From positions 1 through 64,000 of the forward strand of contig NZ_MTBG01000018.1 of assembly GCF_002119405.1 (NCBI RefSeq): a stretch of 64,000 bases of DNA, in the 5' to 3' direction. Numbering within the stretch: position 1 is the first letter of the stretch; each line of letters begins with the position of its first letter. A program made the position numbers and the translations under genes. The DNA comes from Pseudoruegeria sp. SK021. GTDB taxonomy: Bacteria > Pseudomonadota > Alphaproteobacteria > Rhodobacterales > Rhodobacteraceae. The notes beneath the pieces are model-generated. The model saw only the letters and a list, made by a program, of their open reading frames with translations. It was not told the DNA's origin and ran no database searches. Shown piece after piece: positions 9,206 through 34,080 of the stretch.

Positions 9206-10801
9206 ATGAATTTGAGATCACGCTTTGCCATGGCAGCAGCCGCCTTGGCGCTAAGCGCCGGCGCGGCCAGCGCGGCAGGAACGTTTGTCTATTGCTCTGA
9301 AGGATCACCCGAGGGGTTCGATCCCGCGCTTTACACATCCGGCACCACCTTCGACGCATCGTCGAAATCGGTCTACAATCGCCTGATGCAGTTCGACACC
9401 GGCACCACCAATGTGGTGCCCGGACTTGCCGAAAGTTATGACGTGTCCGAGGACGGCAAGGAATACACCTTCCATCTACGTCAAGGCGTCAAGTTTCATT
9501 CCAACGACCAGTTCACGCCAACCCGCGACTTCAACGCCGATGACGTGATTTTCAGTTTCGAACGTCAGCGTCTGGACGATCACCCCTATAACGCAGTGTC
9601 CGGCGGCACGTGGGAATATTTCGAAGGCATGTCGATGCCTGACTTGATCGAGTCGATCGAGAAAGTGGACGATCATACCGTCAAATTCGTGCTGACCCGC
9701 CCCGAAGCGCCGTTCGTCGCCAATATGGCGATGGATTTCGCGTCGATCCTGAGTGCGGAATATGCCGAGGCGATGATGGACGCCGGCACGCCCGAGATGC
9801 TGAACCAAGCGCCGATTGGCACCGGGCCGTTCCAGTTTTTGGCCTATCAGAAAGATGCGGTGATCCGCTACACTACCAATCAGGACTATTGGGCCGAGCC
9901 GTCGTCGCTGGACAACCTGATTTTTGCGATCACGCCTGATGCCTCGGTTCGCTATCAAAAGCTGAAAGCTGGCGAATGTCATCTGATGCCCTACCCCAAC
10001 CCGGCTGACATCGAAGCGATGAAATCCGACCCCGACGTCAACATGATGCAGCAAGAGGGCCTGAACGTCGGCTATCTGGCTTACAACACCACCGTCGCGC
10101 CTTACGACAACCCGAAGGTGCGCAAAGCCCTGAACATGGCCATCGACAAGCAGGCGATCATCGATGTGGTGTTCCAAGGCTCTGGTGAGATCGCCAAGAA
10201 CCCGATGCCGCCGACGATGTGGGGGTATAACGACGCCATTGAGGATGATCCGTTTGATCCCGAAGCCGCCAAAGCGATGCTGGAGGCCGAAGGCGTCACC
10301 GATCTGGAGATGAAGATCTGGGCGATGCCGGTACAGCGCCCCTACAACCCCAATGCCCGACGCATGGCGGAACTGATGCAAGCCGACTTCGCCAATATCG
10401 GGGTCGATGTCGAAATCGTCTCGTATGAATGGGGCGAATATCTGGCCCGCTCGCGCGAGATGAACCGCGATGGGGCGATCCTGCTGGGATGGACCGGGGA
10501 CAATGGCGATCCCGACAACTTCCTTGCCGTGCTGCTGGGATGCGATGCGCGCGAAAACTCCAACCGCGCGCAGTGGTGCTATGAGCCGTTCGAAGACCTG
10601 ATCCAAGAAGCCAAAGTGGTGACCGATCCGGCTGAACGGACGGCACTTTATGAAGAGGCACAGGTTGTCTTCAAGGATCAGGCCCCGTGGGCAACCATCG
10701 CCCATTCGGTCGTGTTCGTCCCGATGAGCCCGAAGGTCCAGAACTTCAAGATCGATCCGCTGGGTGGCTTCATCTTCGACGGTGTCTCACTGGCTGATTA
10801 A
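9206..10801 (+). CDS. dppA: Dipeptide ABC transporter substrate-binding protein
   Basis: A 531-residue periplasmic family 5 binding protein that captures peptides for import. It has a cleavable signal peptide ending near SAGAASA-AGT. The mature sequence closely follows E. coli DppA as I remember it: YCSEGSPEGFDPALYTSG at the start, RPEAPFVANMAMDFAS in the middle, WAMPVQRPYNPNARRMAE and GWTGDNGDPDNFLAV near the end, with a Cys pair (CDA...QWCYEPF) in the last third. It is the first gene of an operon with an M24 peptidase, two permeases and two ATPases, so dipeptide uptake is the best reading. A strong hairpin follows its stop codon. Confidence 0.93.
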   Translation: MNLRSRFAMAAAALALSAGAASAAGTFVYCSEGSPEGFDPALYTSGTTFDASSKSVYNRLMQFDTGTTNVVPGLAESYDVSEDGKEYTFHLRQGVKFHSNDQFTPTRDFNADDVIFSFERQRLDDHPYNAVSGGTWEYFEGMSMPDLIESIEKVDDHTVKFVLTRPEAPFVANMAMDFASILSAEYAEAMMDAGTPEMLNQAPIGTGPFQFLAYQKDAVIRYTTNQDYWAEPSSLDNLIFAITPDASVRYQKLKAGECHLMPYPNPADIEAMKSDPDVNMMQQEGLNVGYLAYNTTVAPYDNPKVRKALNMAIDKQAIIDVVFQGSGEIAKNPMPPTMWGYNDAIEDDPFDPEAAKAMLEAEGVTDLEMKIWAMPVQRPYNPNARRMAELMQADFANIGVDVEIVSYEWGEYLARSREMNRDGAILLGWTGDNGDPDNFLAVLLGCDARENSNRAQWCYEPFEDLIQEAKVVTDPAERTALYEEAQVVFKDQAPWATIAHSVVFVPMSPKVQNFKIDPLGGFIFDGVSLAD

Positions 10802-17186: not shown

Positions 17187-19238
17187 TCAGACAAAGATGA
17201 AGTCGGACGCCTCCAGCGCCGCGCTGTTGAAATCCGCCAGCGTGACGCTGTTGGCCCCGTCACCGGTCGCGCTGAGGATCGCGTGCGCGCCGGACTGCCG
17301 GATCGACAGATCGCTCAGACCTGACACGCCGCTCAGCCCGGAAAAGTCCAACTTGTCAGTGCCGTCCACGAAATCCTTCACCACATCGCGGCCGAATCCG
17401 TCACTCCATGCAAAGGTATCGGCGCCTGAGCCGCCAAGATAGAAATCATTGCCAGCACCCCCGTCAATCCGGTCATGTCCCGCGCCGCCGATCAGCGCAT
17501 CTGCGCCGCCGCCCCCCAAAAGGGTATCATTGCTCTCGCCGCTGAAAATCCGGTCATTGCCGTTGCCGCCGGTCAGGCGATCTCTGCCAAGCCCCCCGAC
17601 CAAGACGATGTTTTGGGTCATACCAGTGGCGTCGATGCGGTCGTCGCCCAGATAGCCCACCACCCGCTCAACTCCGACCCAACCGCCGACCTTAAGCGCG
17701 ACTCCGGCGGCGGCATTGATGATGGCTTTATCGGTCCCATCGCCACCATCGACCACTCGGTCGCCGGTGTTGTCGATGTAGAAAATGTCATTGCCAGAGC
17801 CACCGAAAAACGTATCCGCCCCCGTGCTGCCCAACAGAACATCATCGCCCGCACCGCCGCGCAGGGTGTCATTGCCCGTGCCGCCGATCAGCACATCATC
17901 CGCGCCCCCCCCGGTCAGCGCGTCCGCGCCGTCATTGCCAAAGAGCAGGAGTTTTGCCGTCTGGGTGGCGCCGTTGATCACGTCGTCGCCAATATTGCCG
18001 TTCACCCGCTCAATCCCGGACCAGCCCGCAAATGAGATGCGGTCGCCAGCGGCACTGCTGATCTGAGCCTTGTCATAGCCGACGGTGCCGGTATCGGTCA
18101 CCACATCCAAGCTATCCACAAAGTATTCGTCGGAATTGGCCCCGCCATCCATGCGATCTTTGCCAGCCCCGCCAAACAAGCTGTCGTTGCCGGCGCCCCC
18201 CGACAATGTGTCATTGCCCGACCCGCCCAATAGAACATTATTCCACGCGTTGCCGATGATGACATCCGCACCACTGCCGCCTTGGGCGTTCTCGAAATAG
18301 CCCCGGCGATCATTGTTCGATAGCAGGCTGAACCAGATATGTTGCGAGGCGTATTCCCCGGTTCCCAACCGGGCGCGATAGGCGTTGCCGGCAACATCCA
18401 GATCGACCCCGCCACCCGGCGTCAGATCAATACGGACGGCGCGGTCATATCCGGTTAAAGTGAACATGTCGGTGCCGCCGCCGTCCCAAAGCGTCAGAAA
18501 GGTCCGCGCCGCCCCGGGGGTGCCCATAGAGGTGCCGTCACGCAGAACGGCCCCGGTTTTGCTGTCGAATGAATAGATCGTATCCGACGCAGCGGTGGCG
18601 TAATCGGCGCCATATATCTTCTGCAAGGCCGCGATATCCAGCACCATCGGCGATTGCACATGGCCCCATGTTTCACTGGTCAGGGCCAGTCCCGTCTGCC
18701 CGGTGACCGACCGATAGGACATCACCGTATTTTCGATCCCGTCCACCGCCCGCGGCAGGGTTGTCGTGGCCGATCCGAGGGTCTCATGTGGGTGTTTCAG
18801 GCCAAGCGCGTGCCCCGTTTCATGCAGCAATAACTGCCACGCATACCGCCCGATCAATGATCCGCCCCCGGTCAGCACCGTATCAGGGATGGCGGCATCG
18901 GTATTGACCCACAGGTCGCCGGAATAAAATTTGTCGCCGGTTGGATAATACCCCAAGCCGACCACCGCCGGGTCAGACGACGCCGCCACCGCCAGATCCG
19001 GCCAGCGCGTTCCGGGATCGACCTCTCTCAGGCGAATATTCAAGAAACTGTCATACAACGCAAATACGGCGCGGGCGGCGTCCCGCACCACCTCTGGCAG
19101 GGGGCCAAGCGCGGCGATGGACCCACGATCATATCCGTTTGGGAACTCTGCTTTTGAGTCGGGAAAACCGAAGGTCAGCCGAGATGTGGACCAATCATAT
19201 TCAGAAATGATTCCCGATGTATTTGAAACGGCGATCAA
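17187..19238 (-). CDS. Serralysin-like secreted metalloprotease with RTX calcium repeats (M10 family)
   Basis: A 683-residue extracellular zinc protease. The start is TTG at 19238, six nt after GGGAGAG; no ATG fits the N-terminus. The zinc site HETGHALGLKH (His139, Glu140, His143, His149) and the Met-turn at TVMSYR (Met173) define the catalytic domain in residues 1-200. A long series of GGxGxDxxx calcium-binding nonapeptides runs from about residue 330 to 630, interrupted by non-repeat modules. There is no signal peptide, and the protein ends in hydrophobic DFIFV, as expected for type I secretion. No type I exporter genes are nearby. It could feed peptides to the adjacent dpp importer (inference). 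Confidence 0.9.
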   Translation of the reverse strand: MIAVSNTSGIISEYDWSTSRLTFGFPDSKAEFPNGYDRGSIAALGPLPEVVRDAARAVFALYDSFLNIRLREVDPGTRWPDLAVAASSDPAVVGLGYYPTGDKFYSGDLWVNTDAAIPDTVLTGGGSLIGRYAWQLLLHETGHALGLKHPHETLGSATTTLPRAVDGIENTVMSYRSVTGQTGLALTSETWGHVQSPMVLDIAALQKIYGADYATAASDTIYSFDSKTGAVLRDGTSMGTPGAARTFLTLWDGGGTDMFTLTGYDRAVRIDLTPGGGVDLDVAGNAYRARLGTGEYASQHIWFSLLSNNDRRGYFENAQGGSGADVIIGNAWNNVLLGGSGNDTLSGGAGNDSLFGGAGKDRMDGGANSDEYFVDSLDVVTDTGTVGYDKAQISSAAGDRISFAGWSGIERVNGNIGDDVINGATQTAKLLLFGNDGADALTGGGADDVLIGGTGNDTLRGGAGDDVLLGSTGADTFFGGSGNDIFYIDNTGDRVVDGGDGTDKAIINAAAGVALKVGGWVGVERVVGYLGDDRIDATGMTQNIVLVGGLGRDRLTGGNGNDRIFSGESNDTLLGGGGADALIGGAGHDRIDGGAGNDFYLGGSGADTFAWSDGFGRDVVKDFVDGTDKLDFSGLSGVSGLSDLSIRQSGAHAILSATGDGANSVTLADFNSAALEASDFIFV

Positions 19239-19503: not shown

Positions 19504-21372
<1,869 letters not shown>

Positions 21373-21464
21373 ACGGAACCTTTGGCCGCCCCCCGATGCC
21401 ACAGCGCAAACCGGGACCGGCCAAGGTCTTGTGACAAGACCGAATGACAGGAAAGGATGACAGG

Positions 21465-22676
21465 ATGGGTAAGGTTCTGGTGGTTGGCGCAGGCGGCGTA
21501 AGCTCTGTTGCTGTACACAAGATGGCGATGAACCCCGAGATTTTCTCGGAGATCGCGCTGGCAAGCCGCACCAAGTCGAAATGCGATGACATCGCCGCCA
21601 GCGTCAAAGACCGTACCGGCGTGACGGTGGCGACCTATCAGCTGGATGCGATGGATGTCGCTGCCACCGTTGCGCTGTTGCGCGCAACCGGGGCCGAGTT
21701 GTTGGTGAATGTGGCCCTGCCCTATCAGGATCTGGTGCTGATGGATGCCTGCCTTGAGGCCGGTGTGAACTATCTCGACACCGCGAATTATGAGCCCGAA
21801 GATGAGGCCAAGTTCGAGTATCACTGGCAGTGGGCCTATCAGGACAAGTTTCAAGAGGCCGGTCTGACCGCAATCCTTGGGTCGGGCTTTGATCCCGGCG
21901 TCACAAGTGTCTTTGCCACATGGCTACGCAAGCACAAACTGTCAGGCATTCGGCAGTTGGATGTGCTGGACTGCAACGGCGGCGACAATGGCAAGGCCTT
22001 TGCGACCAACTTCAACCCCGAGATCAATATCCGCGAAGTCACCGCCCCGGCCCGGCACTGGGAAGCGGGCCAATGGGTCGAAAGCCCGGCGATGACCCAT
22101 AAGGTCGCCTATGACTTCCCCGGCGTCGGGACCAAGAACATGTACCTGATGTATCACGAGGAATTGGAGAGCCTGAGCACCCACTTCCCCGAGATCGAAC
22201 GGGCGCGGTTCTGGATGACCTTTGGCGACGCTTATATCAATCACGTCACGGTGTTGGAAAACATCGGCATGACCTCAATCCAGCCGGTGATGCATAATGG
22301 GGTCGAGATCATTCCGTTGCAGTTCCTGAAAACGGTTCTGCCCGATCCCGGCGATCTGGGCGCACTGACCAAGGGCAAGACCTGCATTGGCGATATTGCC
22401 ACCGGTCCGGCGATCGACGGCAGCGGCGAGAAGACGTTCTACATCTACAACATTTGCGACCATGAAGAATGTTACGCCGAGGTCGGCAGCCAAGCCGTGG
22501 CCTATACCACCGGCGTGCCGGCGATGATCGGCGCGGCGATGGTGCTGACCGGCGCGTGGAAAGAAGCCGGGGTCTGGAACATGGAACAGCTCGACCCTGA
22601 TCCGTTCATGGAGATGCTGAACACCCAAGGCCTGCCTTGGCAGGTTGTGGAACTGGACGCGCCGGTCGACTTCTGA
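21465..22676 (+). CDS. Carboxyspermidine/carboxynorspermidine dehydrogenase (saccharopine dehydrogenase family)
   Basis: A 403-residue NAD(P)-dependent enzyme. It starts at ATG 21465 after GAAAGGATGACAGG with the dinucleotide loop VLVVGAGGVSSVAVHKMA. Family blocks such as YLDTANYEPEDEAKFEY and GSGFDPGVTSVF follow. In the carboxyspermidine route this protein condenses putrescine with aspartate semialdehyde and reduces the imine to carboxyspermidine. The neighbouring decarboxylase gene supports that over lysine metabolism. It lies 92 nt after speA and is followed by a strong intergenic hairpin. Whether the amine is putrescine or diaminopropane cannot be read from sequence; the presence of speA and speB favours putrescine. 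Confidence 0.9.
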   Translation: MGKVLVVGAGGVSSVAVHKMAMNPEIFSEIALASRTKSKCDDIAASVKDRTGVTVATYQLDAMDVAATVALLRATGAELLVNVALPYQDLVLMDACLEAGVNYLDTANYEPEDEAKFEYHWQWAYQDKFQEAGLTAILGSGFDPGVTSVFATWLRKHKLSGIRQLDVLDCNGGDNGKAFATNFNPEINIREVTAPARHWEAGQWVESPAMTHKVAYDFPGVGTKNMYLMYHEELESLSTHFPEIERARFWMTFGDAYINHVTVLENIGMTSIQPVMHNGVEIIPLQFLKTVLPDPGDLGALTKGKTCIGDIATGPAIDGSGEKTFYIYNICDHEECYAEVGSQAVAYTTGVPAMIGAAMVLTGAWKEAGVWNMEQLDPDPFMEMLNTQGLPWQVVELDAPVDF

Positions 22677-22683
22677 CCGGACC

Positions 22684-22718
22684 CCGGGCGGGGCGGGCAT
22701 CGAGCCCACCCCGCCCGG
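22684..22718 (+). terminator. GC-rich hairpin inside the polyamine operon
   Basis: A 14-bp stem with a single C-A mismatch pairs 22684-22697 with 22705-22718 around a 7-nt loop, just after the dehydrogenase stop. It has no T tract and lies about 35 nt before the ribosome site of the next gene. Partial attenuation or mRNA stabilisation is therefore likelier than full termination. Confidence 0.5.
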
Positions 22719-22765
22719 ACGCCCCCCCGATGGGGGTCGTGGCGCCCCGAGGAGAGGATGAGGCT

Positions 22766-23956
22766 TTGGATCAAAATCTGGATATTTCGGCGGACAGCCG
22801 GGAGCGATTTGCGCGGCTCGACCTGAGCCGGGTGCCGTCACCCTGTTTCGTGGTCGACGCGGCCCAGATCGAGCGCAACTGCGCGATCCTGGCTGATGTG
22901 GCTGCACAATCCGGTGGGCATGTGTTTCTGGCCCTGAAGGCGTTCTCAATGCATGCCCTTGCGCCAGTGATCATGCGCTATCTGAGCGGCACCGCCGCCT
23001 CGGGCATCCATGAAGCCCGGCTGGGACGGGAGAAGTTCGGCGGTCATGTGGCCACGTTCAATGCCGGGTTCAAGCCGGATGAACTTGCGCAAGTCCTGCG
23101 GGTTTCGGACCATGTGATCTTCAACTCGGCCTCGCAAGCCCGACGCTTTCGGCCACAGTTGCTGGCGGCACAAGCCGAGGGACTGACGGTCGAGGCCGGC
23201 CTGCGGATCAACCCAGAGCATTCTGAAGGCTGGAACGAAAAATACGACCCCGCCGCCGCCTGTTCCCGCCTTGGCGCCCCGGTCTCGCGCGTGACCGAGG
23301 CCGATCTGGACGGGCTATCCGGTTTGCACATGCACACCCTCTGCGAGCAGGGGTTCGCGCCCCTCGCCCGCACGTGGGCTGCGGTGGAACCGACCATCGG
23401 ACCGTGGTTGCACAAGTTGAAATGGCTCAACCTTGGCGGCGGCCACCACATCACCAAGGGCGATTACGACCGCGACGGGTTGATTGGCCTGATCCGACAC
23501 ATCCGCACCACCTATGATGTCGAGGTGTATCTGGAACCGGGCGAGGCCGTTGCCCTGCAAGCCGGCATTCTGGTCGGGGAAATCCTTGATCTGACCGAGA
23601 ACAGCATGCCACTGGCAATCACCGATATTTCCGCCACGTGCCATATGCCCGACGTGATCGAAGCCCCCTATCGTCCGGATCTGTTGGGCGAATTGCCCGA
23701 AGGCGACGCCCCCGCGATCCGCTTGGGCGGCCCGTCGTGCTTGGCCGGGGATGTAATCGGCGATTTCCGCCCTGCCGTGCCGTGGGCGGTGGGTGACCGC
23801 TTTGCCTTTCTGGATCAGGCGCATTATTCCATGGTCAAGACCAACACCTTCAACGGCGTCCCCCTGCCCGCCCTCGCCATTTTGGATTCGCGCACCGATG
23901 ATCTGCGTGTGATCCGCGAATTTGGCTATGACGATTTCCTGAACCGGTTGTCCTGA
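22766..23956 (+). CDS. nspC: Carboxynorspermidine/carboxyspermidine decarboxylase
   Basis: A PLP enzyme of the alanine-racemase-fold decarboxylase group that removes CO2 from carboxyspermidine to give spermidine. I place the start at TTG 22766, 8 nt after GAGAGG. The only upstream in-frame ATG (22730) has no ribosome site, and the ATG at 22758 is out of frame. That gives 396 residues. The cofactor lysine is Lys58 in VFLALKAFSM. The LNLGGGHHITKGDYD glycine loop and a C-terminal GPSCLAGDVIGDF block carrying the expected active-site Cys are present. It lies between the dehydrogenase and agmatinase genes, 12 nt from the latter. Confidence 0.92.
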   Translation: MDQNLDISADSRERFARLDLSRVPSPCFVVDAAQIERNCAILADVAAQSGGHVFLALKAFSMHALAPVIMRYLSGTAASGIHEARLGREKFGGHVATFNAGFKPDELAQVLRVSDHVIFNSASQARRFRPQLLAAQAEGLTVEAGLRINPEHSEGWNEKYDPAAACSRLGAPVSRVTEADLDGLSGLHMHTLCEQGFAPLARTWAAVEPTIGPWLHKLKWLNLGGGHHITKGDYDRDGLIGLIRHIRTTYDVEVYLEPGEAVALQAGILVGEILDLTENSMPLAITDISATCHMPDVIEAPYRPDLLGELPEGDAPAIRLGGPSCLAGDVIGDFRPAVPWAVGDRFAFLDQAHYSMVKTNTFNGVPLPALAILDSRTDDLRVIREFGYDDFLNRLS

Positions 23957-23968
23957 AAGGTTCCGCCC

Positions 23969-24820
23969 ATGACGATCTTCCTTGATGGTGAGTTGAGCGC
24001 CGCCGAGACTGACCCCAGCACCGCCCGTTTCCGGGTGATCCCGGTCCCACTGGAGCGGACAGTGTCGTACGGGTCCGGTACCGGCCATGGCCCGGCTGCG
24101 ATCCTTGAAGCCAGTGTGGAACTGGAGCGGCTCTGGCGCGGCGATCAACCCTGTGCGGCGGGCATCGTCACGGAAGATGTGGTGGATTGCACCGGCCCGC
24201 TGCCGGAGGTGATGGACCGGATCGCAGACCGGACCCGCGCCGCAACCCAGCAGGGCCAGATTCCGGTGGTCTTGGGCGGCGAACATTCCCTCAGCTATGG
24301 CGCAGTGCGCGGCGTTGCTGCCGCCTGCGGTGCGCCGGTGGGGATTGTCCAGATCGACGCCCATGCCGACCTGCGACTGGCCTATCAGGGCGAGCGGCAT
24401 TCCCATGCCTCAGTGATGCGGCTGCTGGCCGAAGAGGACGGCATCGCGCTGGCCCAATTTGGCGTCCGCGCCTTGTGTCAGGACGAGGCAGACGCCCGCG
24501 CCCGGCTTGGAGTTCATTTCGTAGATGCCGAGGCGTTGGTGACGGGCAACACCCTGTCGGTGAGCTTGCCGGCGGATTTCCCCGAACTGGTCTATGTCAG
24601 CTTTGATCTGGATGGGCTGGACCCATCCTTCTTGCCCGCCACCGGCACGCCCGTGCCCGGCGGCCTTGGCTTTTGGCAAGCGCTGTCGTTGGTGGAAAGC
24701 GCCCTTGCTGGTCGCCGCATGGTCGGCTGCGACGTGGTCGAACTGGCCCCGGAACCGGGCAGCCGGGTGTCGGATTTTACGGCGGCTCAGGTCACCTATG
24801 CGCTGATGTCGCTGGCGTAA
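23969..24820 (+). CDS. speB: Agmatinase (ureohydrolase)
   Basis: A 283-residue dimanganese enzyme that hydrolyses agmatine to putrescine and urea. All metal ligands are visible: His106 (GGEHSLSYG), Asp130, His132 and Asp134 (IDAHADL), Asp213 and Asp215 (SFDLDGLDP). It follows nspC by 12 nt and completes the route from arginine made by speA. Formiminoglutamase or arginase activity cannot be excluded by sequence alone, but adjacency to speA makes agmatinase the natural call. A hairpin just past its stop separates it from the convergent regulator. Confidence 0.93.
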   Translation: MTIFLDGELSAAETDPSTARFRVIPVPLERTVSYGSGTGHGPAAILEASVELERLWRGDQPCAAGIVTEDVVDCTGPLPEVMDRIADRTRAATQQGQIPVVLGGEHSLSYGAVRGVAAACGAPVGIVQIDAHADLRLAYQGERHSHASVMRLLAEEDGIALAQFGVRALCQDEADARARLGVHFVDAEALVTGNTLSVSLPADFPELVYVSFDLDGLDPSFLPATGTPVPGGLGFWQALSLVESALAGRRMVGCDVVELAPEPGSRVSDFTAAQVTYALMSLA

Positions 24821-25794: not shown

Positions 25795-27426
25795 ATGATT
25801 GGTAAAGGTTTGCGACTTGGCGGCCCGTTCACGGCAGCGGTCGCGGTCGTCGGAATATATGCAGGGACATCAGCCACTGCGCAGGAACTAGGAGAGAAGA
25901 TCCCAAAAATGACCGTGGAGTATTACGCCTCGGACATGGGCCCTGAATTTGAACAATCTGCCCGAGCGCTTGCTGATGACTGGGGCAAATTGGGGCTGGA
26001 GCTGCAATTGGTTCCGGTGCAATTTTCAACTTTCGTCACGCAGTATATCGTCGGCGGCCAACTTGAAGATCTGGCGGTATTTTCGGTCGGGGCCGACCCT
26101 GACCGTGTCGACCCCACGTATTGGGTCTATGACGTTGCCGCCTGCGGGCTGCGGCGCAATGGATCGAAATGGTGTGACGAGGCGTACAGCCAGCGCGCTT
26201 CGGATCAGCGCGCCATCATCGATCAGTCCGACCGCATCGAAGCGGTCCATGCGTTGCAGGAAGAATTCGTCGAGGCGATGCCGTTCTTCACGGTGGTCAA
26301 TCGGACATACGGAATTGTCTACAACAGTTCGAAATGGGAAAACGTGACCAGCCCCGAACCAGTGGCCGCGCACGAGGAGTTGGTGAACCCGTGGCTCGCC
26401 GCGCGTCCGCTGACCGACGATCGCTGGCTGGACTGGGCCTATTTCGAAGATGTGAGTACCTATAACCCGCTGGCCGAAGAAAGCGCTGTGGGCTGGGTGC
26501 GGTTTATTTTCGATACTTTTGCCAAGAACAATTCCGAAGGTAAAACCGTGCCTTGGGCTGCGGAAAGCTGGACCTGGATTGACGACACGACACTTGAAGT
26601 GACGCTGCGCGAGGGCATGTTGTTCCACGATGGTGAGGCGGTCACTGCCGATGATGCGGTATATACGATCAACACGGTCGTCGATCTGCAACCACCTGCA
26701 ATGTCGTCCCGCACGTCGAACATCACCGGCGCGGAAAAAATCGACGATTTGACCTTCCGCATCTCACTCAACAGTCCCGACGCCGCGTTTGAGATCACGG
26801 TGCTGACCTATATGTTCATCCTGCCCGAGCACATCTGGTCCAACGGGCCGGAAGATCTTTTGGCTTGGGACATCGTGGCAGATGATGCGGTTATCGGCAG
26901 CGGGCCATTCAAGTTCAAAACGTGGCTGCCCAACGAAGTTCACGAACTTGACGCCAACGCGGATCATTTTCAAGCGCCAGAATACGACGGTTTGCGCAGA
27001 CTTGCTCTGGGTCAGGCCGACGCGATCCGGGCGGCGCTTTTGGATGGGACAGGCGATATCGCCACATCCGTCTTGCCCGTCGCATCTATGGACGATCTGG
27101 CGCGCCAGAACGATTTCCTTGAGTTCATCGAAGTGCCGTCGCATGGGTCGGTCTTTGTTTGGATGAACAACGAAAAGGCACCGTTCAACGACCGGGCATT
27201 TCGGATGGCCATTCGCAAGGCAAGCAACAAGCAACGCGTGATGATCGAAGGCTGGCAGGGCTTTGCCGTTCCGGCGTCCGAAGGCCCGGTGCCCCGGGTT
27301 CTTGGCCAGTGGTACAATTCTGACCTTGAGCAGATTGCGTTCGATATCGACGCCGCCCGTCAGGAACTTGAGGACGCAGGGTACGGCTGGGGTTCAGACG
27401 GCGCGCTGCACTTCCCCGTCAAGTAA
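25795..27426 (+). CDS. ABC transporter substrate-binding protein, family 5, apparently circularly permuted
   Basis: A 543-residue secreted binding protein with a signal peptide (cleavage near SATA-QE, residue 30) and a strong ribosome site (GGAGGAG). Residues 38-185 resemble the part that normally ends family 5 proteins: ARALADDWGKLGLELQL, the IVGGQLEDLAVF strand, an R-to-Y-rich WCDEAY segment, then HALQEEFVEAMPFFTVVNR. Residues 205-543 resemble the normal beginning and middle: WAAESWTWIDDTTLEVTLR, EGMLFHDGEAVTADD, IGSGPFKFKTW, FNDRAFRMAIRKA and finally ARQELEDAGY, which usually precedes the first-named part. Comparison with the ordinary-order DppA encoded at 9206 makes the swap clear. It heads an operon with two permeases and two ATPases, so it is probably functional. 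Confidence 0.85.
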   Translation: MIGKGLRLGGPFTAAVAVVGIYAGTSATAQELGEKIPKMTVEYYASDMGPEFEQSARALADDWGKLGLELQLVPVQFSTFVTQYIVGGQLEDLAVFSVGADPDRVDPTYWVYDVAACGLRRNGSKWCDEAYSQRASDQRAIIDQSDRIEAVHALQEEFVEAMPFFTVVNRTYGIVYNSSKWENVTSPEPVAAHEELVNPWLAARPLTDDRWLDWAYFEDVSTYNPLAEESAVGWVRFIFDTFAKNNSEGKTVPWAAESWTWIDDTTLEVTLREGMLFHDGEAVTADDAVYTINTVVDLQPPAMSSRTSNITGAEKIDDLTFRISLNSPDAAFEITVLTYMFILPEHIWSNGPEDLLAWDIVADDAVIGSGPFKFKTWLPNEVHELDANADHFQAPEYDGLRRLALGQADAIRAALLDGTGDIATSVLPVASMDDLARQNDFLEFIEVPSHGSVFVWMNNEKAPFNDRAFRMAIRKASNKQRVMIEGWQGFAVPASEGPVPRVLGQWYNSDLEQIAFDIDAARQELEDAGYGWGSDGALHFPVK

Positions 27427-27502: not shown

Positions 27503-28468
27503 ATGCGCGCCTATATTCTGCGGCGGCTACTCCAGTCTATCGTAGTGGTGTTCGCTGTCACGACGATCATGTTTTTCATATTTCGCATCGTGCCGGCCGA
27601 TCCTACAGCCATGATGGTCGAACGTGGCATGTCCGAAGAGGCGCGGCAGGCCCTGCTCAAGGAATGGGGGCTGACCGGGTCCCTTGGCACACAATACGTG
27701 AGCTACATTAAAAATCTGATGGTGTTCGATTTCGGGGAGTCCTTCTTTTATAAAAAACCGGTTTGGGACGTTCTTTTGCCGCGGATCGTCAATACGTTGT
27801 GGATTGCGGTGCCAGGGTTGTTGATGGGCGCGGCCATCGGCGCAGGACTGGGCATGGTCGTCGGCTGGTCCAAACGCGGCAGCGCAACCGAACGCAGCGG
27901 CATCTTGGTGGCCACCATCATTCGCGGCACCCCAAGCTTCATCATCGGCATTGCCTTGCTGGCAATTTTCTCAAGTTGGTTGGGCTGGCTGCCGGGATTT
28001 GGCATGGGGGACGCGAATGGAAAAACCGGTATCGCGCGGTTTTTGCAGGGCGACTTCCTGATCCATCTGATCCTGCCAGTCCTCGCAATCACGATCTACT
28101 TCTTGCCCGAGAACCTTCTTCTAATGCGGTCAGGCGTGGCCGAGAACCGGACAGAAGATTACATCGAACTGGTGCGCGCCAAAGGCGTATCCAATTCGCG
28201 CGTGGCATGGCATGCGGGCCGCAATTCGCTGTTGCCGCTGATTACATGGCTTTTCCCTGCGCTTGCAGAGACCATCGCCGGAATTGTCGTGATCGAGATC
28301 GTCTTTAGCTGGCCGGGCATCGGGCGCGAACTGGTGATGGCCGTAACCCGCCAGGATTTCCCGCTTGCCCAAGCTGCGTTCTTTTTGCTGGCTGTGATGA
28401 TCGTCGTGGCGAATTTTGCCGCAGATCTGACCTATGGCAAGCTTGATCCACGCGTCGTGTATAGGTGA
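27503..28468 (+). CDS. Peptide-type ABC transporter permease (DppB type)
   Basis: A 321-residue inner-membrane permease. It starts MRAYILRRLLQSIVVVFAVTTIMFFIFRIVPADP, the typical first helix and periplasmic block of the DppB/OppB family. The EAA loop is in ENRTEDYIELVRAKGVSNSRV, and the last helices lie around ETIAGIVVIEIVFSWPGIG. It follows the binding-protein gene by 76 nt and is followed by the second permease after 7 nt. The substrate is unknown; ring-cleavage enzymes at the operon end hint that it may not be a plain peptide. Confidence 0.92.
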   Translation: MRAYILRRLLQSIVVVFAVTTIMFFIFRIVPADPTAMMVERGMSEEARQALLKEWGLTGSLGTQYVSYIKNLMVFDFGESFFYKKPVWDVLLPRIVNTLWIAVPGLLMGAAIGAGLGMVVGWSKRGSATERSGILVATIIRGTPSFIIGIALLAIFSSWLGWLPGFGMGDANGKTGIARFLQGDFLIHLILPVLAITIYFLPENLLLMRSGVAENRTEDYIELVRAKGVSNSRVAWHAGRNSLLPLITWLFPALAETIAGIVVIEIVFSWPGIGRELVMAVTRQDFPLAQAAFFLLAVMIVVANFAADLTYGKLDPRVVYR

Positions 28469-28475
28469 TAAGCGA

Positions 28476-29381
28476 ATGACAACGTTGGTAAAATATACAA
28501 AACAATCACCAAGCCGTCGCTGGTCGTGGCTGACAGACCCGCTGGCTGCACTCATTCGTGATCGCTTCGCACTGGGCGGACTAATTATCCTTGCGATCTT
28601 TTTCCTGATTGCGATCTTTGCGCCCCTGATCGCCACCCATCCGCCGTTTGAATCTGCGATTAGCGACACAGGTCGGCTGATGCGGTTGCAGCCACCATCC
28701 GCGGATCATTGGCTGGGGACGACAACGTTTGGACAGGATGTGTTTTCCCAGTTTGTTCTGGGTTTCCGTGTCACCCTGATGGTTGGCGTGCTCGGGGCGA
28801 TTGCTGTCGGCGTGATCTCAACGCTGTTTGGGGTGATCTCGGGCTATTTCGGCGGCTGGGTGGACGATGTGCTGATGCGCATCACCGACATTGCCTTGTC
28901 CATCCCGACGTTGCCGTTTGCCATTCTCGCCGTGGGCCTGTTGGGACCCAGCATCAACAACATCATTCTGGTCATTGTTCTGTTGTTCTGGCGGAACGGT
29001 GCACGAATCATCCGATCAGCGGTGCTGACCGAGCGTGAGCGCGTGTATGTCAAGTGGGCGCGAACCGCAGGCGCATCGCACGTTCACATTATCCGGTGCC
29101 ACATTTTGCCCAACGTGTTTCGCGTGATCTTTCTATGGGTGACGATGTCCGTGGCCTTTGCGGTGCTGACCGAGGCCAGCCTGAGTTTTATCGGCCTAGG
29201 CGATCCATCGACGACCTCGTGGGGTCAGATGCTGAACACCGCATTCACCAGCGGCAATCTGCGCAGCGCTTGGTGGTGGGTTGTGCCGCCGTCTCTGGCG
29301 CTCGTGATGTTGATTTCGTCGCTCTACCTTGTGGGGCGTGCGTTCGAGGAACATGCAAACCCGCGACTGAGGGCCAAGTGA
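28476..29381 (+). CDS. Peptide-type ABC transporter permease (DppC type)
   Basis: A 301-residue permease starting at ATG 28476, just after the preceding stop; the longer frame from 28434 lies inside the previous gene. It carries the OppC first helix (FALGGLIILAIFFLIAIFAPLIATHPP), the HWLGTTTFGQDVFSQ block equivalent to the usual GTDxxGRD, and the EAA loop RERVYVKWARTAGASHVH. Its stop lies one base before the next ATG, so the operon is tightly packed. Confidence 0.92.
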   Translation: MTTLVKYTKQSPSRRWSWLTDPLAALIRDRFALGGLIILAIFFLIAIFAPLIATHPPFESAISDTGRLMRLQPPSADHWLGTTTFGQDVFSQFVLGFRVTLMVGVLGAIAVGVISTLFGVISGYFGGWVDDVLMRITDIALSIPTLPFAILAVGLLGPSINNIILVIVLLFWRNGARIIRSAVLTERERVYVKWARTAGASHVHIIRCHILPNVFRVIFLWVTMSVAFAVLTEASLSFIGLGDPSTTSWGQMLNTAFTSGNLRSAWWWVVPPSLALVMLISSLYLVGRAFEEHANPRLRAK

Positions 29382-29382
29382 C

Positions 29383-30465
29383 ATGACATTAAACACACAT
29401 GAAACTGACTTCGACCGCAAGCTAAACGCAAAGCCACCGGTCGAGCTGTCAGTGCGCGATCTGCGGATTGCCTACGCGACGTCGCGGGGTCCCTTCCGGG
29501 CTGTGGATGGAATTAGTTTTGACGTCCAGCCCAGCAGTGTCCTTGGACTGGTCGGGGAATCGGGTTGCGGCAAAAGCACTGTGGTCAAATCTTTGATGCG
29601 GCTGCTGCCCGACGGAACGCAGGTTGATGGTGAGGTTTTGCTGAACGGTCAAAACGTTCTTGCGATGACCGATGGCGCATTGCGCAAAACCCGGTGGAAT
29701 AAGATCGCACTGATTACCCAAAGTGCCATGAACGCGCTCGACCCGGTGATCTGCATCGGCGACCAGATTATCGAGTCCATTCAGGCGCATGAAAACGTCA
29801 GCCGCAAGGTTGCTTGGGCGCGGGCGGAATCGCTGTTCACGCTGGTCGGCCTGCCCACCGCGCGATTGCGGGAATACCCGCACCAATTCAGCGGTGGAAT
29901 GCGTCAGCGCGCGGTGATTGCTATGGCGCTTAGCCTCAATGCCGGGTTGTTGCTTGCGGATGAGCCGACGACGGCGCTGGACCCGATCATGCAAGACCAG
30001 ATCATGTCGCGCATTCGGGCCATTCAAGACCGGCTGCATCGCTCGATGATCCTCGTGACCCATGACATTGGGCTGGTGGCCGAAAACTGCAACACCGTTG
30101 CGGTCATGTATGCGGGCAAAATCGTCGAAATGGGGCCAGTGGAGCAAGTTCTGGTGGCACCCGAACATCCCTATACGATCGGGCTGCACAACGCTTTTCC
30201 CCGGATGTTGGCCGAAGGAGAGGAACGCCCGCCGCTGATCTCGATTGCGGGCGGCCTGCCCAATCTGTTGAATCCGCCAAGTGGATGCCGGTTTCATACC
30301 CGTTGCCCATTTGCGACGGACCGATGTTCGGCTCAAGAGCCGCCGCTGCGCGAGGTGCAGCCGCGCCGCAGTGTGGCCTGCCACCACGCAGGACAGGCCG
30401 TCGACTTTCGGAGGCGAGCCACAAATCCTGAAACATGGGCGACCGCGGCGAGGGGCACATCATGA
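29383..30465 (+). CDS. Peptide-type ABC transporter ATPase (DppD type)
   Basis: A 360-residue ATPase with an N-terminal extension of about 20 residues. Walker A is [11 protein letters not shown], the Q-loop is LITQSAMNALDP, the signature FSGGMRQRAVIAMAL, and Walker [13 protein letters not shown]. The C-terminal oligopeptide tail carries CRFHTRCPFATDRC. It overlaps the following ATPase gene by four bases (ATGA). Confidence 0.92.
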   Translation: MTLNTHETDFDRKLNAKPPVELSVRDLRIAYATSRGPFRAVDGISFDVQPSSVLGLVGESGCGKSTVVKSLMRLLPDGTQVDGEVLLNGQNVLAMTDGALRKTRWNKIALITQSAMNALDPVICIGDQIIESIQAHENVSRKVAWARAESLFTLVGLPTARLREYPHQFSGGMRQRAVIAMALSLNAGLLLADEPTTALDPIMQDQIMSRIRAIQDRLHRSMILVTHDIGLVAENCNTVAVMYAGKIVEMGPVEQVLVAPEHPYTIGLHNAFPRMLAEGEERPPLISIAGGLPNLLNPPSGCRFHTRCPFATDRCSAQEPPLREVQPRRSVACHHAGQAVDFRRRATNPETWATAARGTS

Positions 30466-31526
30466 CACAGCGCAGCTATGGCGATACAGTGCTGGAAGCG
30501 CGGCAGCTTAAGACCCATTTCAAGCTCGGCGGCGGCATCATCGCCGCGCTGACCGGCCAGCCTGCCCGCGTGGCGAAGGCCTTGGATGGCATCGATCTGA
30601 CAATTCGCGCGGGCGAGGTCCTTGGCCTCGTGGGCGAAAGTGGCTGCGGAAAGTCCACCCTTGGAATGACGCTGGTGCGGATGCACGAGCCGACAAGCGG
30701 CGATATTGTGTTTCAGGGCCAGTCGGTCACCGAAATAACCGGCCCTGACCTGAAGGACTTTCGCGCCAAGTCGCAGATCATCTTTCAGGATCCTTACAGT
30801 TCGCTCAACCCGCGCCTGACCATCGGCGAGATCGTGGCCGAACCGCTGCGGATCCATCGTCGCGGCGACGAGGCAACCCGCAGGGCAAAGGTGCATCAGG
30901 CACTTGGCCACGTTCGCCTGCCACCCGAAGAGTTCGCGCACCGCTACCCCGCGGATCTGTCCGGCGGACAGCGCCAACGGGTCGCCATCGCCCGTGCCTT
31001 AGTGCTGGATCCGGTGTTCATCGTTGCCGATGAACCGGTGTCGATGCTGGACGTGTCGGTGCAGGCGGGCGTGCTGCAACTGCTGGATGAATTGTCCCGC
31101 GAACTGGGGTTGGGCGTTCTCTATATTTCGCACGATATCGCAACGGTCGGTTATATTTGCGACCGGATCGCGGTGATGTATCTGGGGCGGGTGGTGGAAC
31201 AGGGCCCCGTGCATGAAATTCTGCGCCGCCCGAAACATCCATATACCCAGCACTTGATGCGCGCGATCCCCAATACCAACCCATTGGTGCGCCGCGAACG
31301 GGTCGTGCTGGAAGGCGATGTGCCGTCCCCCATCAACGCACCGCCCGGGTGCCGGTTTGCATCCCGCTGCCCCTATGTCGCCGATACCTGCCGCAAGACC
31401 GAACCAGAGTTGCTGGACGCCGCGGCCGGAGTTCTGTCGCGATGCCATCTCTACGGCGTCCTTGCAGGCACGGAGTCTGCGGCAGTGGTCGCGGCCAGAT
31501 CCAACGTCAGCGCGGAGGCACCATGA
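30462..31526 (+). CDS. Peptide-type ABC transporter ATPase (DppF type)
   Basis: A 354-residue second ATPase with start ATG 30462 in an ATGA overlap, preceded by GAGGGG. Walker A is [11 protein letters not shown], the Q-loop IFQDPYSSLNPRL, the signature LSGGQRQRVAIARAL, and Walker B FIVADEPVSMLD. The tail has CRFASRCPYVADTC. A stretch after residue 20 (GGGIIAALTGQPARVAKALDG) is an insertion typical of DppF relatives. The stop overlaps the start of the GntR gene. Confidence 0.92.
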   Translation: MTQRSYGDTVLEARQLKTHFKLGGGIIAALTGQPARVAKALDGIDLTIRAGEVLGLVGESGCGKSTLGMTLVRMHEPTSGDIVFQGQSVTEITGPDLKDFRAKSQIIFQDPYSSLNPRLTIGEIVAEPLRIHRRGDEATRRAKVHQALGHVRLPPEEFAHRYPADLSGGQRQRVAIARALVLDPVFIVADEPVSMLDVSVQAGVLQLLDELSRELGLGVLYISHDIATVGYICDRIAVMYLGRVVEQGPVHEILRRPKHPYTQHLMRAIPNTNPLVRRERVVLEGDVPSPINAPPGCRFASRCPYVADTCRKTEPELLDAAAGVLSRCHLYGVLAGTESAAVVAARSNVSAEAP

Positions 31527-32179
31527 GTTTGGCCAAGGAAGACGCCTATGATGGCATTCGCAAGCTAATCTTGTCCGGTGATTTCGTCGCCGGTGACCCG
31601 ATGCCCGAGGAAATGCTGGCCGAGCGGCTTAAGATCAGTCGCACGCCGGTGCGCGATGCGTTGCATCAGCTTGAAGTCGAAGGCATCGTCGAACGCCGTC
31701 AGAACCGCCGCGTTTATCTGGCTGCCGTCAATCCAATGACGGTGGTAGATATTTTTGTGGTTCGCGCACGGCTAGAGCCGCTCGCCGCACGTTTGGCGGC
31801 CGGAAAGGTCGATAAGGCATTCCTTGCCGATCTCGGGGGATTTGTCGAAACCATGGATCGGGTGGCGGGAAGCAAAGACCCCGACCGGCGGCTGTACCGC
31901 GCCCAAAACGAGCATTTTCACTGGCGCATTCTAACCCAATCTGAAAACAGCGCCATGAGTACGGCCGTGCGGGGCGTGGCGCGTCATGGTTTGACCAGCC
32001 CAACATTTGATCGCTGGACCTGTGCCGAACTTGAACGCAGTCAGAACCACCACAAGGAACTGATCCAAGCGTTCCGCGAGGGCGACCCAGACTGGGCAGA
32101 TGCCATCATGACCGCGCATCTTTACGCTGCGCGATCCGTCTATAATCGGGCGGCCAACGGGTCAGTTGCCTCGGTATGA
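31523..32179 (+). CDS. GntR-family regulator, FCD subfamily
   Basis: A 218-residue repressor-type protein. Its N-terminal winged helix reads DGIRKLILSGDFVAGDPMPEEMLAERLKISRTPVRDALHQLE in outline (residues 10-52). An all-helical FCD ligand domain follows, with likely metal-binding histidines (HFHW, HHKEL, HLYAA). It begins inside the ATPase stop (ATGA), so it is the sixth gene of its operon. It probably senses the imported compound or its breakdown product and acts at the palindromes in front of 25795. Confidence 0.9.
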   Translation: MSLAKEDAYDGIRKLILSGDFVAGDPMPEEMLAERLKISRTPVRDALHQLEVEGIVERRQNRRVYLAAVNPMTVVDIFVVRARLEPLAARLAAGKVDKAFLADLGGFVETMDRVAGSKDPDRRLYRAQNEHFHWRILTQSENSAMSTAVRGVARHGLTSPTFDRWTCAELERSQNHHKELIQAFREGDPDWADAIMTAHLYAARSVYNRAANGSVASV

Positions 32180-32192
32180 CAGGTTCAGAACA

Positions 32193-32837
32193 ATGATGGT
32201 TCTCTATGGATACTGGCGGTCTTCCGCGGCGTATCGCGTCAGAATAGCGCTTAATTTTAAGGGATTAGAATATGAATCTCGTTCTGTAAATCTGGTGACG
32301 GGCGAACAGACAACACCCGATTTTTTACGCCTGAACCCCGGTGCTGCGGTTCCGGCATTGGTCTTGAACAATGACACAGTGTTGACGCAATCACTGGCGA
32401 TCATCGACTGGCTGGACACCACCTATCCTCAACCGTGTCTGGTACCTGAATGTCCCACCGACGCGGCCCGCGTGCGGGCGGCTGCGATGGTCATCGCCTG
32501 CGATATTCACCCCCTGAACAATCTGACGGTTCTGGGGCGTCTGCGAGACATGGGCCAAGACGAAGAAGCACGGCGCCTTTGGATGTGTCACTGGATGACC
32601 AAAGGCCTGCACGCCTTTCAAGCCCTCCTGCCAACAGACGAAACATTCTGTTTCAGCAATGCCCCGAACTTGGCCGACACGTGTTTGATCCCGCAACTGT
32701 TCAACGCCCACCGTTGGGGGTGCGATCTATCTGCCTTCAAGCGCCTGACCGAGATTGAGGCCCGTTGTCTCGATCGTCAAGACTTCGCCAACGCGCGCCC
32801 GGAACACCAAACCGATGCCTTAAGAGAGACAGTATAA
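32193..32837 (+). CDS. maiA: Maleylacetoacetate isomerase (zeta-class glutathione S-transferase)
   Basis: A cytoplasmic glutathione-dependent isomerase that turns maleylacetoacetate into fumarylacetoacetate in tyrosine and homogentisate breakdown. The zeta-class signature YGYWRSSAAYRVRIALNFKGL lies right at the N-terminus and contains the catalytic Ser-Ser pair. QSLAIIDWLDTTYP and the helical C-terminal domain follow. Start at ATG 32193 gives 214 residues; ATG 32196 is equally possible. It is followed one base later by fumarylacetoacetase, which makes the pathway assignment firm. Confidence 0.9.
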   Translation: MMVLYGYWRSSAAYRVRIALNFKGLEYESRSVNLVTGEQTTPDFLRLNPGAAVPALVLNNDTVLTQSLAIIDWLDTTYPQPCLVPECPTDAARVRAAAMVIACDIHPLNNLTVLGRLRDMGQDEEARRLWMCHWMTKGLHAFQALLPTDETFCFSNAPNLADTCLIPQLFNAHRWGCDLSAFKRLTEIEARCLDRQDFANARPEHQTDALRETV

Positions 32838-32838
32838 C

Positions 32839-34080
32839 ATGACGGACCTTCTGATTTCCTGGATCGACAGCGCCAATTCCGACGCCACCGATTTTCCGCT
32901 GAACAATTTGCCATACGGCGTATTCCTTGCCGAGGATGGCTCAGGCCATTGCGGCGTCGCGATCGGGGCGCACATTCTTGATCTGCACGCGGTCGAAGCC
33001 GCGGGGCAGATCGACTTTTCTGGCACCTTATGTCAGGGGGACTGGTCGCCCTTTATGGCGCGCGGCACATCGGAATGGGCGCGCTTGCGCAGTTGGCTGC
33101 AATCCACACTGGCCAAAGGCGCGTCCGAACAACCCCTGCTTGAGCCGCATCTTGTCTCCCTCGGGCAGGCTCAGATGTTAATGCCGTTCCGGGTGTCGGA
33201 ATATACAGATTTTTATGCCTCACGTCACCATGCGACCAATGTGGGAATGATCCTGCGCGGCGCGGACGGATCATTGCCCGCGAACTGGCTACATATTCCC
33301 ATCGGGTATAACGGGCGTGCCTCATCGGTTGTGGTGTCGGGAACGGATGTGCGCCGTCCGTCAGGTCAACTGAAGGCGATGGACGAAACCGCCCCCCGCT
33401 TAGGCGCGTCGCAGCGTTTCGATTTCGAGTTGGAATTGGGTGCGGTCGTGGGGCAAGCATCTCAGGGACCGATCAATGTCGGTCAGGCCTTTGAGAACAT
33501 TTTTGGCTATGTGCTGCTGAACGATTGGTCGGCCCGGGACATTCAAGCATGGGAATACCTGCCGTTGGGTCCCTTCCAATCCAAGGCGACGGCGACCACG
33601 ATCAGTCCGTGGATCGTCACGACTGCCGCGCTAGAGCCATTCCGCACCAATACGCCCGAACGCGATGTCCCGCTGCTGGACTATCTCACCGAACTAGGGC
33701 CCATGCTGTTCGATATCGACCTCAACGTGGCGATCAAGCCCGAGAATGGACCTGAGACGACAATTTCCCGCACCAATTATGCGTCAATGTATTATTCGGC
33801 GGCGCAACAACTTGCCCATCACACCTCGTCGGGTTGCCCAATGCGGGTGGGCGATTTGCTGGGGTCCGGCACCATTTCAGGCCCCGAGAAAACGGCACGC
33901 GGCTGCATGCTTGAAATCACTTGGGGCGGACAACAGCCGGTCGAATTGTCGTCGGGCGCGATGCGTACATTCCTTGAGGATGGGGACACCGTGATCCTCC
34001 GCGGCGGATCGGTTGCCAAGGACTACCGTGTCGGATTCGGCGCTTGCGTCGGTAAAGTGGTCCCGAACGGGACAATGTGA
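32839..34080 (+). CDS. fahA: Fumarylacetoacetase
   Basis: A 413-residue hydrolase that splits fumarylacetoacetate into fumarate and acetoacetate. It has the N-terminal SH3-like FAH domain (DFPLNNLPYGVFLAEDG, residues about 17-33). The catalytic domain carries FRVSEYTDFYASRHHATNVG with the expected acid and His residues, ELELGAVVG metal ligands, and the NDWSARDIQAWEYLPLGPF block. Full length and two domains distinguish it from short fumarylpyruvate hydrolases. It ends the operon. Homogentisate dioxygenase and 4-hydroxyphenylpyruvate dioxygenase are not in the window. Confidence 0.94.
   Translation: MTDLLISWIDSANSDATDFPLNNLPYGVFLAEDGSGHCGVAIGAHILDLHAVEAAGQIDFSGTLCQGDWSPFMARGTSEWARLRSWLQSTLAKGASEQPLLEPHLVSLGQAQMLMPFRVSEYTDFYASRHHATNVGMILRGADGSLPANWLHIPIGYNGRASSVVVSGTDVRRPSGQLKAMDETAPRLGASQRFDFELELGAVVGQASQGPINVGQAFENIFGYVLLNDWSARDIQAWEYLPLGPFQSKATATTISPWIVTTAALEPFRTNTPERDVPLLDYLTELGPMLFDIDLNVAIKPENGPETTISRTNYASMYYSAAQQLAHHTSSGCPMRVGDLLGSGTISGPEKTARGCMLEITWGGQQPVELSSGAMRTFLEDGDTVILRGGSVAKDYRVGFGACVGKVVPNGTM

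Follow-up and report, generated by a model that had tools for sequence, protein, structure and literature searches.

The described substrate-binding proteins closest to the one reported here are those of the DppA/OppA/AppA/NikA type (family 5, PF00496). In the accessible part of the work on EppA of Chelativorans, Domain I is N-terminal, Domain III is contiguous, Domain IIb is C-terminal, and the hinge consists of two strands (PMC7312458), while the accessible part of a study on DppA reports that Asp408 binds the amino group of the ligand (PMC8566422). A permuted chain has been described for Tp0684 (MglB-2) of Treponema pallidum, a glucose-binding protein of cluster B which the consulted part of the source groups with its homologues as 'Cluster Bc', and for which the authors raised adaptation to membrane anchoring (PMC4990184). 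Our search of the literature for a natural permuted protein of family 5 or cluster C, with most subscription journals outside its scope, gave none among the titles listed, where the only natural permuted substrate-binding protein was Tp0684 (PMC4990184); PMC2588589 mentions the two subjects in a table and a reference only. An earlier sequence-only reading of this DNA had stated that it knew of no described example; within the scope of our search this is true of family 5, and it fails for substrate-binding proteins in general, since the cluster B protein Tp0684 is in print.

The window, that is, the whole stretch of 64,000 nucleotides analysed here, contains a gene whose product very probably has the two parts of such a protein in exchanged order, and a linear DppA-type protein that served as internal control. 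Their features are as follows.

25795..27426, + strand: very probably circularly permuted family 5 substrate-binding protein, 543 aa (ORF, PF00496, BLAST, linear profile)
25795..25881, + strand: signal peptide, residues 1-29, A-T-A before Q (cleavage by eye; similar mature start in most of 12 aligned members)
25909..26349, + strand: former C-terminal part, residues 39-185, linear profile 348-487 (BLAST, linear profile, shuffles)
26350..26397, + strand: junction, residues 186-201, former C-terminus to former mature N-terminus, no net insertion (linear profile, spacing)
26398..27399, + strand: former N-terminal part, residues 202-535, linear profile 21-347 (Pfam, BLAST, linear profile)
27400..27423, + strand: new C-terminal tail, residues 536-543, with G-x-L-H-x-P invariant in 12 close members (alignment)
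9206..10801, + strand: linear DppA-type protein, internal control (Pfam, BLAST)

The 543-residue ORF, identified in the ORF list with its translation, matched Pfam SBP_bac_5 (PF00496) with 186.3 bits, above the curated cut-off of 32.4, and this match consisted of two stretches, the best of which placed residues 251-536 on profile positions 2-284. Residues 30-201 alone gave a weak match to profile positions 290-360 (E 0.025, 14.1 bits, below the cut-off of 32.4). The control, proposed as such by the sequence-only reading, behaved as expected of a normal-order protein, with a single collinear match of residues 69-448 on positions 1-365. Comparison with this DppA by BLAST placed residues 239-529 of the permuted protein on DppA 63-363 (7e-14) and residues 26-169 on DppA 354-500 (4.5e-8), in reversed order, and notional rotation of the chain produced a single collinear match (E 1.8e-22). 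Likewise, a linear profile built from 15 linear substrate-binding proteins of the same genome aligned residues 39-185 with positions 348-487 and residues 202-535 with positions 21-347. The usual one-piece collinear family 5 match was therefore absent from the native chain by both methods. The reversed order of the halves and their boundaries (38-185 and 205-543), as claimed in the sequence-only reading, were thus borne out, the latter within a few residues; one collinear full-length match, which that reading had named as contrary evidence, was looked for, and two significant matches in reversed order were found instead. When the mature chain was rotated in 10-residue steps and the 52 rotations were scored against the linear profile, the best was that at residue 200, with 199.2 bits in a single match of positions 22-486, compared with 156.3 bits for the best match of the native order. 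The N-terminal part scored 36.0 bits against the same profile, and the best of 500 shuffles reached 5.8. The reversed two-part matches, the rotation scan and the shuffles together indicate that the permuted order is real and not due to chance.

No assignment to the cluster B (type I) proteins of the Tp0684 kind was obtained, the sole Pfam match being family 5; the NCBIfam and PDB matches listed bear names of the Dpp/Opp/Nik kind, with no NCBIfam match reaching its cut-off. Both parts of the protein are homologous to one linear family, they are swapped, the old ends are joined, and the arrangement is conserved in relatives, as is characteristic of natural circular permutation. We conclude with high confidence that 25795-27426 encodes a family 5 (cluster C) substrate-binding protein in natural circular permutation, which presumably serves a complete ABC importer as its binding component.

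Structure prediction with AlphaFold gave a poor model when 12 permuted sequences were the sole input (pLDDT 44.0, pTM 0.33). The addition of 27 linear proteins, each as two unmodified stretches, gave a confident model (pLDDT 86.1, pTM 0.87), although this rests on a 66-row alignment in which the unpaired linear halves bias the model towards the linear fold. The predicted model shows that the permuted chain would be compatible with the cluster C fold, which is not independent proof. Its closest PDB structures by Foldseek were AppA, NikZ, a sialic-acid-binding protein, YliB, DppA and similar proteins, which we take to be cluster C. The best 50 rows aligned 230-396 columns with TM scores by query of 0.36-0.54, as is to be expected when the aligner keeps sequence order. 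A profile of 16 permuted proteins matched 107 distinct PDB sequences; in the best 60 of these the top-scoring stretch always lay within the large part, and no permuted chain was found among them.

The spacing across the junction is informative about how the old ends were joined. From profile position 470 to position 60, the permuted proteins have a median of 73 residues (71-77, rows with both positions mappable). In linear proteins, the tail after position 470 has a median of 33 residues and the mature head up to position 60 a median of 39 (measured in 80 proteins that show a simple A-x-A motif for cleavage), with a median sum of 73 and a 10-90% range of 66-82. This equal spacing indicates that the old ends were joined unaltered, that the old signal peptide is gone, and that a new one has been placed before what was mid-chain. 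In terms of linear profile positions, the last part of the permuted proteins ends at about 342-359 and the first part starts at about 332-364; only L152 starts earlier, at position 304, with an N-terminal extension. L134, L150 and L152 are divergent permuted members with such extensions, and the early start of L152, which overlaps the other segment, possibly reflects a loose alignment or possibly a remnant of a duplicated stretch. Transferred to the domain plan of EppA by relative position rather than by alignment, the old ends would lie in Domains I and IIb, whereas those newly created would fall within Domain III (lobe 2). On the same analogy, the hinge should stay two-stranded, and a signal-peptide or lipid tether should now leave from lobe 2. 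A placement of the cut in Domain III fits poorly with the assignment of DppA Arg355, a residue close to the cut, to Domain I in the accessible part of PMC8566422. The leaders of the permuted proteins are plain, Tat-like or lipobox-like, the three haloarchaeal ones being lipobox-like. This comes from a simple search for motifs, which is prone to false matches and takes in sequence upstream of the start as well. With such mixed leader types, it seems that anchoring is not something these proteins have in common.

The permuted form was found well beyond the window. In total, 46 distinct permuted proteins, all cut at roughly one point, were recognised across Alphaproteobacteria, Actinomycetota and haloarchaea. 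Beside them, 97 linear ORFs were classified, which differ from one another in their last 250 residues and include a few fragments such as L151. Proteins with profile starts more than 100 positions apart in reversed order were counted as permuted, a rule that includes L134 and L152 with their small overlaps; L151, a contig-end fragment, is only nominally linear by this rule and was left out of the trees and later counts. Two-piece matches in normal order were observed in L057 and L059. A scan of named genomes detected 42 relatives, which the linear profile divided into 11 permuted and 31 linear proteins. The 11 permuted relatives are 63-80% identical to the window protein and conserve the new C-terminus (12-member alignment). 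They come from records of Paracoccus, Pseudotabrizicola, Pseudorhodobacter, Nitratireductor, Devosia, Aureimonas and a Methylobacterium MAG, among others; two are titled Enemella and Verrucomicrobia MAG (a 5.9-kb contig), which is no evidence for those phyla. The record of Enemella evansiae TN21-6 (G1012), with its actinobacterial title, holds the closest relative (L001, 80%), flanked as in the window by maiA and fumarylacetoacetase genes, and its linear substrate-binding protein L139 groups in the tree with L088 from the window's own family; this record is probably mislabelled or contaminated. The window genome itself has 18 PF00496 loci, of which only 25795-27426 is permuted.

In the genome samples, where counts are lower bounds because 3 to 9 candidates were scored per genome, permuted proteins were present in 13/292 genomes of the order, so that the order of parts that the sequence-only reading had proposed to seek in other Rhodobacterales does occur there, and far beyond. 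The 51 matches in this sample were divided into 13 permuted, 19 linear and 19 unclassified, the last matching only from query position 205 on. The sample of the class contained permuted proteins in 10/385 genomes; a second sample of 190 genomes of the class, searched with another query alignment, gave nine matches in eight genomes (eight permuted, one contig-end fragment), including members in G001 and G011, which were matchless in the first. In the phylum sample, the permuted form was found in 1/398 genomes, this being the window's own, and 29 of the 32 other matches could be classified, all as linear; in Actinomycetota, it was found in 2/198 genomes, with two further matches being linear. 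Plasmid records searched by tblastn (E 1e-40) returned 16, 22 and 37 records for three queries, with matches in Nitratireductor, Microvirga, Ketogulonicigenium, Roseomonas, Neorhizobium, Maritalea and several haloarchaea; all eight plasmid-record loci examined, three of them haloarchaeal, were permuted with about the same cut. A scan of viral contigs yielded 12 pattern-matched stretches, none of them a relative, and matches were found in 0/151 genomes of Chloroflexota, a search that is uninformative on absence. Eight annotated permuted examples carry simply the name 'ABC transporter substrate-binding protein'. As judged from sequence comparison, this permuted subclass of a very common protein family is real, widespread and apparently unremarked.

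As noted in the sequence-only reading, the gene heads an ABC operon. Two permeases and two ATP-binding proteins lie downstream, followed by further genes.

27503..28468, + strand: permease 1, DppB/OppB/NikB-like (ORF list, NCBIfam)
28434..29381, + strand: permease 2, DppC/OppC/NikC-like (NCBIfam; the listed start overlaps permease 1, and the true start is probably later)
29383..30465, + strand: ATP-binding protein 1, DppD/OppD-like (ORF list, NCBIfam)
30435..31526, + strand: ATP-binding protein 2, DppF/OppF-like (NCBIfam; the listed start overlaps ATP-binding protein 1)
31523..32179, + strand: GntR-type regulator (name and start by reading the sequence; homologue near the permuted gene in 9/11 loci)
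32166..32837, + strand: maleylacetoacetate isomerase, maiA (TIGR01262, 250.8 bits, cut-off 171.05; homologue in 7/11 loci)
32839..34080, + strand: fumarylacetoacetase (TIGR01266, 461.8 bits, cut-off 375.3; homologue in 8/11 loci)

The best NCBIfam names of the permeases and ATP-binding proteins of this operon are of the Dpp/Opp/Nik kind, with scores below the curated cut-offs. Dpp/Opp-type permeases and ATPases are encoded with the permuted gene in the window and in its relatives: among the close relatives, both permeases were found in 11/11 loci, ATP-binding protein 1 in 11/11 (partial in L004, at a contig end) and ATP-binding protein 2 in 10/11, and permeases with one or more ATP-binding proteins adjoin the permuted gene in 8/8 annotated distant loci. 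An additional conserved ORF of about 390-460 aa lies downstream of the ATPases and before the GntR gene (at about 11450-12990) in 9/11 loci (L002, L003, L005-L011). These ORFs are 65-80% identical to that of L006, and they share a serine-hydrolase-like GWSGGG motif; with this motif, the product is presumably an alpha/beta hydrolase. They gave no Pfam match (four scanned, E 1e-10) and no NCBIfam match (three scanned, E 1e-15), and the spacing between ATPase and GntR genes is too short for such an ORF in the window and in L001. Upstream of the permuted gene, positions 19504-24820 hold in a row an arginine decarboxylase and an agmatinase (above cut-off) and a carboxynorspermidine synthase and decarboxylase (best names, below cut-off), an alternative polyamine route that had no match at E 1e-15 in the loci of the 11 close relatives (about 6 kb each, less in L004). 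An ORF at 17187-19238 on the - strand reads like a secreted RTX-repeat metalloprotease, with HExxH and GGxGxD repeats seen by eye.

Regarding the ligand, the neighbouring genes point weakly to an organic acid, aromatic or otherwise, or to an amino-acid derivative that is blocked. Homogentisate was considered as substrate in view of the fumarylacetoacetase and maiA genes. This candidate was weakened by two observations, namely that hmgA had no match in the window genome at E 0.001 (the control matched in 1/14 genomes), and that the annotations around the eight distant loci show no fumarylacetoacetase and maiA pair, L132 having a fumarylacetoacetate hydrolase family gene. Two further FAA_hydrolase genes are present in L006 and at least one in L010. 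The neighbours of the distant loci vary by locus and include hydantoinase/oxoprolinase, M20, M28 or M81 peptidase, creatininase, D-aminoacylase and dipeptide epimerase. A loss of the acidic residue corresponding to DppA Asp408 in the permuted proteins was also considered and rejected, as an acidic residue occupies this column in 35/46 rows, and consequently no conclusion on the ligand follows from it. Our guess, of low confidence, is a carboxylated small molecule that would differ between subgroups.

Trees of rotated permuted rows and linear rows addressed the origin of the clade. The permuted proteins fell on one side of a branch with an SH-aLRT value of 99 in a tree of 33 permuted and 78 linear rows, which left out 12 near-copies, L057, L059, fragments and repeats. 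In a larger tree of 46 permuted and 79 linear rows, which left out near-copies, fragments, repeats and the odd rows L021, L057, L058 and L059, the value for such a branch was 86, and the nearest linear rows were L142 and L143 (Actinomycetota). Separate trees of the two segments needed two changes each, and in that of the large segment the linear L142 stood in a starred set with the 46 permuted rows. A reversal in the line of L142, or a misplaced long branch, may be responsible. A single origin of the permuted clade is the best reading of these sequence trees, although it is not secure. Permuted proteins in general are modelled as products of tandem duplication, fusion and outer loss, and this model fits the clean junction. 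A linear gene would have been duplicated in tandem, the copies would have been fused in frame end to end, the outer halves would have been lost, and a new signal peptide would have been gained, a series that would most likely have taken place once. The resulting chain would fold as an ordinary two-lobed Venus-flytrap and would hand its ligand to the two permeases.

Several other explanations of the exchanged order can be weighed against this one. A misjoining of two adjacent gene pieces during assembly or annotation is extremely improbable, as the same order appears in independent named genomes and complete plasmids, in matches without internal stops and with conserved new ends. That the first 185 residues belong to another fold or domain, leaving family 5 to the large part only, would agree with the Pfam match of the N-terminal part alone remaining below cut-off (E 0.025). 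However, a profile of this part built from the 46 permuted proteins matches 92/96 linear proteins and is placed after the large part in 92/92, and four linear PDB structures viewed contain both swapped stretches (in 1dpp, 255-537 on 44-340 and 49-183 on 357-487), so a foreign fold in this region, which the sequence-only reading had listed as contrary evidence, has next to no likelihood. Fusion of the halves of two different family 5 paralogues by domain shuffling, with the permuted order arising by chance, has in its favour that the two segments rank their linear relatives differently: L142 and L143 are first and second for the large segment and 17th and 69th of 92 for the small one, while L012 is 15th for the large and first for the small. 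Nevertheless, it was with the large segment that L142 and L143 had been retrieved, and this biases the ranking; the small segment offers only 133 usable columns; and linear proteins that score well with one segment tend to do so with the other (Spearman 0.63). In length, the junction corresponds to mature ends joined end to end, which the ends of two paralogues could fit too. On balance, such a fusion seems unlikely.

With circular permutation as the preferred reading of the chain order, its consequence for the protein can be seen in two ways. The permutation may be a neutral topological accident frozen in the clade, with tethering, hinge and docking unaltered, and we give this an even chance. 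The ordinary layout of the ABC operon agrees with it, as do the plain, Tat-like or lipobox-like leaders recognised by the simple motif search, which reveal no single tethering mode; on the other hand, the long retention in two domains of life with a nearly fixed cut could fit selection. We also propose, tentatively and with considerable doubt, that a single ancient permutation founded a 'Cluster Cc' and was kept across Bacteria and Archaea because it shifted the chain ends, and with them the membrane tether, out of lobe 1 and into lobe 2 close to the ligand cleft, so that the protein would be held, or would dock on its permease, in a different way.

Family 5 binding proteins are common, as the number of loci in the window genome alone illustrates, and the same swap in dozens of bacterial and haloarchaeal relatives suggests an overlooked and lasting natural redesign of such a protein. 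A subclass with swapped topology is an experiment made by nature on the importance of chain order, tether position and hinge in Venus-flytrap proteins. It opens a way to study how, and how long ago, natural permutation took place, and it could supply natural scaffolds from which to design biosensors. A further lesson is that permuted genes are mishandled by annotation based on coverage and by collinear alignments.

Among the known systems, EppA of Chelativorans is a linear cluster C protein and the source of the domain plan used here, compared by relative position with no alignment (accessible part of PMC7312458). Tp0684, according to the consulted part of its description, is a cluster B protein with a reordered N lobe, whose chain has to cross the hinge a fourth time, and it is known from a crystal structure and binding data, whereas the permuted family 5 protein is known from sequence and a model. 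The proteins of the DppA/OppA/AppA/NikA type (PF00496) are homologous to the permuted protein over both parts and have the same operon layout of permeases and ATP-binding proteins. However, their order is linear, whereas that of the permuted proteins is reversed, with ends where linear chains are continuous. An R-x-D-P signature, rare in these linear proteins (3/96 rows), is a feature of the permuted ones (39/46 rows, with L140 also having one outside the search window).
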